Origin: Candidatus Auribacterota bacterium
Lineage (GTDB): Bacteria; Auribacterota; Tritonobacteria; UBA1439
Reading direction: 5' to 3'
DNA length: 43,351 bases
Assembly: GCA_026392035.1 (NCBI GenBank)
Contig: JAPLCX010000084.1
Span: 1 to 43,351, forward strand
Under the pieces are notes generated by a model. That model saw only the letters and a program-made list of their open reading frames with translations, made no database searches and was not told where the DNA came from. The position numbers and the translations under genes are program-made. Below, in pieces: positions 33,106-34,936 of the stretch; the first letter of the stretch is position 1, and every line of letters begins with the position of its first letter.

Positions 33106-33177
33106 CGGGGCGTAGCGTCCCGAAAGCATTCGGGAGTGAGCGCGTCCCGATCGAGATCGGGGAGGTCGGCGGTTCAA
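33106..33177 (+). pseudogene. Degenerate tRNA-Pro-like unit upstream of the intact tRNA
   Basis: The unit begins with the same CGGGGCGTAGCG as the intact tRNA-Pro. The D-arm is then replaced by the hairpin TCCCGAAAGCATTCGGGA and the anticodon arm by CCCGATCGAGATCGGG. It continues with the tRNA's GGAGGTCGGCGGTTC but stops before the 3' acceptor strand. It cannot form a functional tRNA. Confidence 0.6.
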
Positions 33178-33202
33178 GCTGATATATAGTGTTTATATTA
33201 AA

Positions 33203-33279
33203 CGGGGCGTAGCGCAGCTGGCTAGCGCGCTTGGTTCGGGACCAAGAGGTCGGCGGTTCGAATCCGCCCGCCCCGACCA
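33203..33279 (+). tRNA. tRNA-Pro(CGG)
   Basis: The 77-base gene folds into a full cloverleaf: acceptor CGGGGCG/CGCCCCG, D-stem GCGC/GCGC, anticodon stem CTTGG/CCAAG with loop TTCGGGA (anticodon CGG, reads CCG), variable AGGTC, T-stem GGCGG/CCGCC with loop TTCGAAT, discriminator A and an encoded CCA. No intron or mismatch is seen. It heads a set of tandem copies of its own 3' half. Confidence 0.95.
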
Positions 33280-33334
33280 TTACTGCAGCAACACCGGTTT
33301 CCAGTTTATAGTTCCAAGTAAGAGGGGCAAACGA

Positions 33335-33399
33335 GCGGGGCTAGCGCGCCCCGATCGAGATCGGGGAGGTCGGCGGTTCGAATCCGCCCGCCCCGACCA
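33335..33399 (+). pseudogene. tRNA-Pro-like unit with anticodon arm replaced by a hairpin
   Basis: GCGGGGCTAGCGCG stands for a shortened acceptor and D-region. It is followed by the palindrome CCCCGATCGAGATCGGGG in place of the anticodon arm, then a perfect T-arm, acceptor 3' strand and CCA. The D-loop and a 7-base anticodon loop are missing, so a decoding tRNA is excluded. Confidence 0.65.
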
Positions 33400-33454
33400 T
33401 TACTGCAGCAACACCGGTTTCCAGTTTATAGTTCCAAGTAAGAGGGGCAAACGA

Positions 33455-33521
33455 GCGGGGCTAGCGCGGCCCCGATCGAGATCGGGGAGGTCCTCCGGTT
33501 CGAATCCGCCCGCCCCGACCA
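33455..33521 (+). pseudogene. Second tRNA-Pro-like unit with hairpin in place of anticodon arm
   Basis: As the previous copy, with one extra C (GCGCGGCCCC) and an altered T-stem 5' strand (TCCTCCGG instead of TCGGCGG), which breaks T-stem pairing. The CCA is at 33519-33521. It ends the tandem array. Confidence 0.6.
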
Positions 33522-33602
33522 TTACTGCAGCCTAAAGTGTAAGGCATAATGCGGTGCTGAGGCTGTTACGCAATTCCTCGGTGCGCGCAGGTGGGGCACG
33601 CT

Positions 33603-34860: not shown

Positions 34861-34936
34861 TGGTGGAGCTGACGGGAGTTGAACCCGTGACCTTCCCGAT
34901 GCCATCGGGACGCTCTCCCAACTGAGCTACAGCCCC
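34861..34936 (-). tRNA. tRNA-Ala(GGC)
   Basis: Read on the minus strand: acceptor GGGGCTG/CAGCTCC with the G3:U70 wobble pair that identifies tRNA-Ala, D-arm GCTC/GAGC, anticodon stem TCCCG/CGGGA with loop ATGGCAT (anticodon GGC), variable AGGTC, T-stem ACGGG/CCCGT, discriminator A and encoded CCA. The anticodon loop matches known bacterial tRNA-Ala(GGC). An AACTGTAGT repeat lies three bases beyond the 3' end. Confidence 0.95.

Follow-up and report, generated by a model that had tools for sequence, protein, structure and literature searches.

Why would a bacterial chromosome hold three damaged copies of a tRNA gene around an intact one, each with a hairpin where the anticodon arm belongs? The question is raised by the tRNA-Pro(CGG) gene of a Candidatus Auribacterota bacterium, located in a window of 43,351 nucleotides (the whole stretch of DNA that was analysed; contig C84 of a 2.8 Mb genome, G000). 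The array region, 33106-33521, contains the intact gene with a 5' partial copy before it and two 3' partial copies behind it (Table 1). A sequence-only reading of this DNA had described one intact tRNA-Pro with one upstream and two downstream relatives, CCCGATCGAGATCGGG in place of the anticodon arm in all three, a D-arm hairpin in the upstream copy, and downstream copies that keep the 3' acceptor strand and CCA and repeat together with their flank. All of these features were borne out by ARAGORN, Rfam, Tandem Repeats Finder and inspection of the sequence.

Table 1. Features of the tRNA-Pro(CGG) array (window coordinates)
Feature	Position	Strand	Evidence or detail
Upstream partial tRNA-Pro copy	33106-33177	+	Sequence; alignment with upstream units at C110, G010, G021, G031
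D-arm hairpin TCCCGAAAGCATTCGGGA of upstream copy	33118-33135	+	Sequence
Hairpin replacing anticodon arm, upstream copy	33145-33162 (CCCGATCGAGATCGGG core 33146-33161)	+	Sequence, alignment
GIY-YIG start remnant ATATATAGTGTTTATATT	33182-33199	+	15/18 identical to G010 ORF start
Intact tRNA-Pro(CGG)	33203-33279	+	ARAGORN; Rfam tRNA 67.4 bits
120-bp-period direct repeat	33246-33531	+	Tandem Repeats Finder: 2.4 copies, 97% matches
Downstream copy 1	33336-33399	+	Hairpin CCCCGATCGAGATCGGGG 33349-33366; T-arm, 3' acceptor, CCA intact
Downstream copy 2	33456-33521	+	Layout as copy 1; hairpin 33470-33487; 3' acceptor and CCA intact

The upstream copy starts with the 5' acceptor strand and reaches as far as the T-loop, where it ends in GGCGGTTCAA, and is devoid of 3' acceptor strand and CCA. 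The downstream copies lack the normal 5' half; copy 1 begins CGGGGC-TAGCGCG and has lost its D-arm, and copy 2 has a variant T-stem. Besides the two downstream copies and the flank common to them, the 120-bp-period repeat takes in the intact tRNA's 3' half. The two downstream copies are not identical (GCGC versus GCGCGG; GGTCGGCGG versus GGTCCTCCGG), and a simple assembly duplication is less likely for that reason. Exactly three occurrences of CCCGATCGAGATCGGG were counted in the window (33146, 33350 and 33471), one per partial copy, and none elsewhere in the 2.8 Mb genome; when up to two mismatches were allowed, six matches were counted on both strands of the window against 0.11 expected. The 16-mer was also used alone as a probe of a public genome collection and was set aside, context and number among the matches listed looking like chance. 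None of the three partial copies reached tRNA thresholds: downstream copy 1 scored 22 bits, below the cut-off of 29, the remaining two were unlisted, and ARAGORN found none of them.

That there might be no other copies was one doubt attached to the sequence-only reading. A search of the own genome with the array showed that both other tRNA-Pro genes also adjoin hairpin-bearing partial copies, and further ones were found in relatives. At C29, a partial copy with TCCCGAAGGCGTTCGGGA as anticodon arm and CCCCCGAAGTAATTCGGGGG as T-arm lies behind an intact tRNA-Pro(GGG). At C110, a partial tRNA-Pro with the hairpin TCCCGATTGAGATCGGGG precedes an 80-codon GIY-YIG ORF, which is followed by an intact tRNA-Pro(TGG). 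The junctions are tight: the partial copy ends in the T-loop (tRNA position 58 of 76) and is followed at once by the ATG of the ORF, the stop codon of which falls within the downstream intact tRNA. The encoded 80-aa protein scored 58.6 bits against PF01541, and its closest solved sequences are those of the UPF0213-type single-domain GIY-YIG proteins PDB 1ZG2 (E 9.1e-7) and 1YWL (E 7.6e-6). A PF01541 search of the window contig found no GIY-YIG gene. Elsewhere in the genome, tRNA-Ser(CGA) is directly preceded by a GIY-YIG ORF that has lost its N-terminal part (L234, C118:13766-13927), another decaying unit.

Alignment of the upstream units of the window, C110, G010, G021 and G031 gave one common layout; a D-loop insert was likewise seen in one upstream unit of G021 (L255). 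Directly 3' of the window's upstream copy, 15 of 18 positions are identical to the start of the G010 ORF, ATGTATTATGTTTATATT, the runner-up among 86,668 window positions matching at 13 of 18. The remnant reads IYSVYI in place of MYYVYI, its start codon is now ATA, and the remaining gene has been deleted. It is these 18 bp that tie the upstream copy to a GIY-YIG gene; no ORF remnant was visible in the downstream copies.

Occupied and empty states of this site were compared along the conserved gene order pcm-dedA-tRNA-Pro in draft genomes, for presence or absence only. Behind pcm, G010 is occupied by an ORF-bearing unit, an ORF-less unit and an intact tRNA-Pro(CGG); G005 and G001 (DedA 81% identical) are empty, with a single clean tRNA-Pro and nothing else; the window carries the remnant. 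The window's downstream units are best paralleled in G028 and G033, two genomes of the same genus with similar dehydrogenase-like downstream genes, where tRNA-Pro(GGG) has a downstream unit with and without the ORF; the gene match between G028, G033 and G021 was judged by eye. G021 contains two tandem ORF-less upstream units (period of about 95 bp, the first with the D-loop insert), an intact tRNA and an ORF start at the contig edge, and on another contig an ORF end with a downstream partial copy; the two contigs probably belong together. Internal-deletion derivatives of the ORF-bearing element are represented by the start remnant of the window and by the pairs at G010, L225 (G021) and G028/G033. 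On the likeliest reading, the partial copies are what stays after loss of the small GIY-YIG gene that lay between a partial copy and the intact tRNA, and tRNA-Pro(CGG) of the window stands between an upstream unit whose ORF was deleted and two downstream units that have no ORF. The earlier proposal of a repeat spreading by using tRNA sequence came close to this; the cause, loss of a GIY-YIG gene between the copies, could not be seen from the window.

The association was surveyed across the phylum with PF01541 in 44 genomes, the own one and those of 43 relatives, and flanks were read by hand. An intact tRNA was found within 300 bp of 24 of the 59 small GIY-YIG ORFs, on the same strand in all 24 cases. 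In two other phyla the figures were 4 of 23 for small ORFs and 0 of 37 for ORFs of at least 200 aa, which are mostly UvrC. Intact elements come in two mirror layouts, always oriented as the tRNA. In the upstream layout, a 5' partial tRNA that bears a palindrome in one of its loops (anticodon, D or T) precedes the ORF and the intact tRNA (Pro, Ser, Met, Asn); in the downstream layout, the intact tRNA comes first, then the ORF and finally a palindrome-bearing 3' partial tRNA (Pro, fMet, Asn, Asp). ORF-less forms exist alongside, and some further loci contain partial tRNAs alone. Each partial copy matches its own adjoining tRNA, be it Pro, Ser, Asn, Asp, Met or fMet, and a strong palindrome was present in every partial copy read by hand. 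Several upstream partial copies end in the T-loop or close by (C110, the window, L222, L232). Terminal inverted repeats bounding the tRNA units were not seen; each has internal palindromes instead. The Pro-type hairpin junction, searched as a pattern, was found at 12 places in 6 of the 44 genomes, against 0 for a control read backwards.

A tree of 55 domains, built from short sequences and with many forks unresolved, separated three sets: UPF0213-like proteins, nearly all of them encoded with no tRNA nearby; a clade of nine whose genes lie between intergenic palindromes (support 100/99); and the tRNA-associated proteins. The target tRNA was clustered on the protein tree, with 17 changes against 35.1 when shuffled (0 of 200 shuffles as low); for the tRNA-associated proteins alone, 13 changes were counted against 19.4 (0 of 200), a clustering to which near-copies contribute. 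The catalytic-type residues Y5, Y16, G18, R26 and E62 are conserved, and ORFs that retain them are present at the related loci C110, G010, G028 and others. Because of this conservation, intact members of the tRNA-type family look active. A few copies are interrupted by stop codons (L214, L215) or shortened, as is L234 of the own genome.

Taken as a whole, the array is best explained, with a probability of about 0.72, as the gene-less remnant of a chromosomal homing-like element, consisting of a single-domain GIY-YIG gene and partial copies of its target tRNA, that inserts leaving the tRNA intact in the manner of SegB. The putative enzyme would cut the tRNA gene, and repair of the break would install the ORF together with a partial duplication of the tRNA, so that one functional tRNA is always left. 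Palindromic inserts would inactivate the partial copy, and later breaks or slippage would both remove the ORF and multiply the short units into tandem arrays.

Support for such a mechanism comes by analogy from phage T6 SegB. Parts of two reports describe SegB of phages T4 and T6 as a free-standing GIY-YIG homing endonuclease encoded in a phage tRNA cluster (PMC13096335; PMC2988022). According to sections of the former, T6 SegB cuts within tRNA genes with a preferred motif RAWTSGAAC and drives tandem amplification of a unit of tRNA plus segB, and segB shares, at its 3' end, microhomology with the 5' end of the tRNA (PMC13096335); translation of T4 segB is described, in part of the latter, as being under the control of RNA structures (PMC2988022). 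The reverse complement of the motif, GTTCSAWTY, can be read as the T-loop. The likeness to the elements studied here lies, as far as those sections go, in a GIY-YIG nuclease gene that adjoins tRNA genes; by contrast, SegB is a phage enzyme and the present elements are chromosomal, and hairpin-bearing partial tRNA copies are not described in those sections of the SegB paper. SegB is also larger than the single-domain ORFs found here (about 80-110 aa). A search of open-access full text found no published description of GIY-YIG elements that reside in chromosomes and come with hairpin-bearing partial tRNAs. The element would be of a known kind, the free-standing homing endonuclease element; its chromosomal setting and the hairpins in its partial tRNAs look new, and the window holds remnants only. 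A viral origin was considered and rejected, the Pro-type hairpin junction being absent from 2.9 million viral contigs and phage relatives of the protein being distant only (35-41% identity).

The palindromes are the weakest part of this account. They may serve to disable the partial tRNA, mask it from cleavage, reduce recombination or regulate how the ORF behind them is translated. Since both downstream copies of the window have an intact T-loop, destruction of a T-loop site is not sufficient as their role, and the anticodon hairpin alone does not explain protection if the enzyme cuts the T-loop like SegB. Part of the downstream spacer, ATTACTGCRGCAAC..., also trails unrelated tRNAs (Lys, Met) and is therefore not specific to the element.

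The prominence of palindromes invites a different reading, in which the GIY-YIG nuclease mobilises them in the style of RAYT/TnpA-REP, the mobile unit being a partial tRNA plus hairpin recognised as a folded structure. The presence of a strong palindrome in every partial copy read by hand would fit, as would the sister GIY-YIG clade (support 100/99), in which inverted GTCATY...RATGAC palindromic repeats lie on both sides at 6 of 9 loci against 0 of 46 others. This reading is nevertheless improbable: stems and loops of the hairpins are very different between tRNA families, the loops affected differ (anticodon, D, T), transposition was not seen, and the resemblance of partial copies to the local tRNA favours local duplication over import of a unit. 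The comparison with REP/RAYT systems (REPtrons) is instructive in that, in the parts of the study describing them (PMC3733652), a nuclease-type gene is likewise accompanied by palindromic repeats and by derivatives that lack the gene. The enzymes differ, RAYTs being HUH tyrosine transposases and the proteins here GIY-YIG, and the present repeats contain tRNA sequence.

It is quite improbable, too, that REP-like mobile palindromes landed by chance in a decayed tandem duplication of tRNA-Pro, with the GIY-YIG gene as a bystander. TCCCGAAAGCTTTCGGGA-type palindromes do occur outside tRNAs in G000 (9 forward and 8 reverse versus 0 in the control), some of them inside TGTCATTGCGAG repeats. Chance insertion leaves unexplained the ORF between the copies at C110, G010, G028 and G021, the GIY-YIG start remnant of the window, the 24 of 24 same-strand association and the clustering of targets on the tree.

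The sequence-only reading had further suggested that the units might be expressed as tRNA-like RNAs or feed tRNA-processing enzymes. The downstream copies, with T-arm, 3' acceptor strand and CCA, fold well, and in this respect resemble what functional RNAs, decoys or processing substrates would be. Such a role is very unlikely, given that the copies all fall below tRNA thresholds, folding z-scores are an unremarkable -0.2 to -1.6, the 3' acceptor and CCA are missing from upstream copies and a normal 5' half from downstream ones, and relatives vary strongly; neither suggestion found support.

Integrases leave direct repeats of the tRNA 3' part beside the tRNA gene, and such repeats adjoin it in the array; a remnant of integrase-type integration (attL/attR duplication) can nonetheless hardly be credited, with a repeat spacing of 120 bp and nothing between, ordinary neighbouring genes at 29.6-36.4 kb and no integrase among them, a 5' copy present as well, and GIY-YIG rather than integrase genes between the copies in relatives. 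The earlier statement that this is not the usual single att-site duplication was correct. Integrative elements that target tRNA genes insert there with a partial duplication, and the tRNA stays functional. The present elements share with them the partial duplication that leaves a functional tRNA; they differ in having no integrase, a unit of about 100-400 bp, either the 5' or the 3' part duplicated, and palindromes added.

The homing-like element reading would give a likely role and target to the small GIY-YIG "family proteins" that are common and unexplained in bacterial chromosomes, would explain why intact tRNAs can have damaged copies next to them, these being relics of a minimal selfish element, and predicts which tRNA each enzyme cuts. 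It would also provide a chromosomal analogue tied to the recent finding of tRNA-segment amplification by phage SegB, and it raises the question of why palindromes mark partial tRNAs.

Several further observations concern palindromes and repeats. The tRNA-Ala(GGC) gene at 34861-34936 (minus strand), apparently intact, has the anticodon arm TCCCGATGGCATCGGGA followed by AGGTC, with the same stem as the partial tRNA-Pro hairpins. Copying of the anticodon hairpin from this gene is possible and was not adopted, because the arm was found in only 1 of 44 genomes and the hairpins in several. The distinct palindrome-flanked GIY-YIG clade lies between inverted common intergenic palindromes, TGTCATTGCGAG...GAAGCAATCTC or GTCATTCCCGCG...GCGGGAATCC, at L172 (G000 C33:221-442), L182, L188, L203, L210 and L212, and in another phylum at L288, L297 and L304. 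As two GIY-YIG lineages are tied to two kinds of palindromic repeat, single-domain GIY-YIG nucleases might quite generally mobilise palindrome-bearing repeats within bacterial chromosomes, with one lineage acting on hairpin-bearing partial tRNAs and its sister on intergenic palindromes (TGTCATTGCGAG..., GTCATTCCCGCG...), with scattered gene-less copies as non-autonomous offspring and the whole as a GIY-YIG counterpart of REP/RAYT; this generalisation is speculative and, for now, rather doubtful.

Palindromes GTCCCGAAAGCTTTCGGGAC were found within longer TGTCATTGCGAG...CAATCTC repeats (L133-L136; G000 C12, C117, C19, C16) and resemble the D-arm hairpin of the window's upstream copy. A common trailer, ATTACTGCRGCAAC... 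or ATTACTACAGTG..., stands behind unrelated tRNAs, at 33280-33320 in the window and at L125 (tRNA-Lys), L128 (tRNA-Met), L131 and L122. Some of these tRNAs have the near-inverse CACTGTAGTAT just 5', and tRNAs therefore seem to be bracketed by a repeat family. At L131 (G000 C67, ca. 52014-52300), the two parts of an apparently split tRNA-like gene, the 5' one and the 3' one with the hairpin CCCGCCGAATGGCGGG, enclose an intact tRNA-Ala(CGC).
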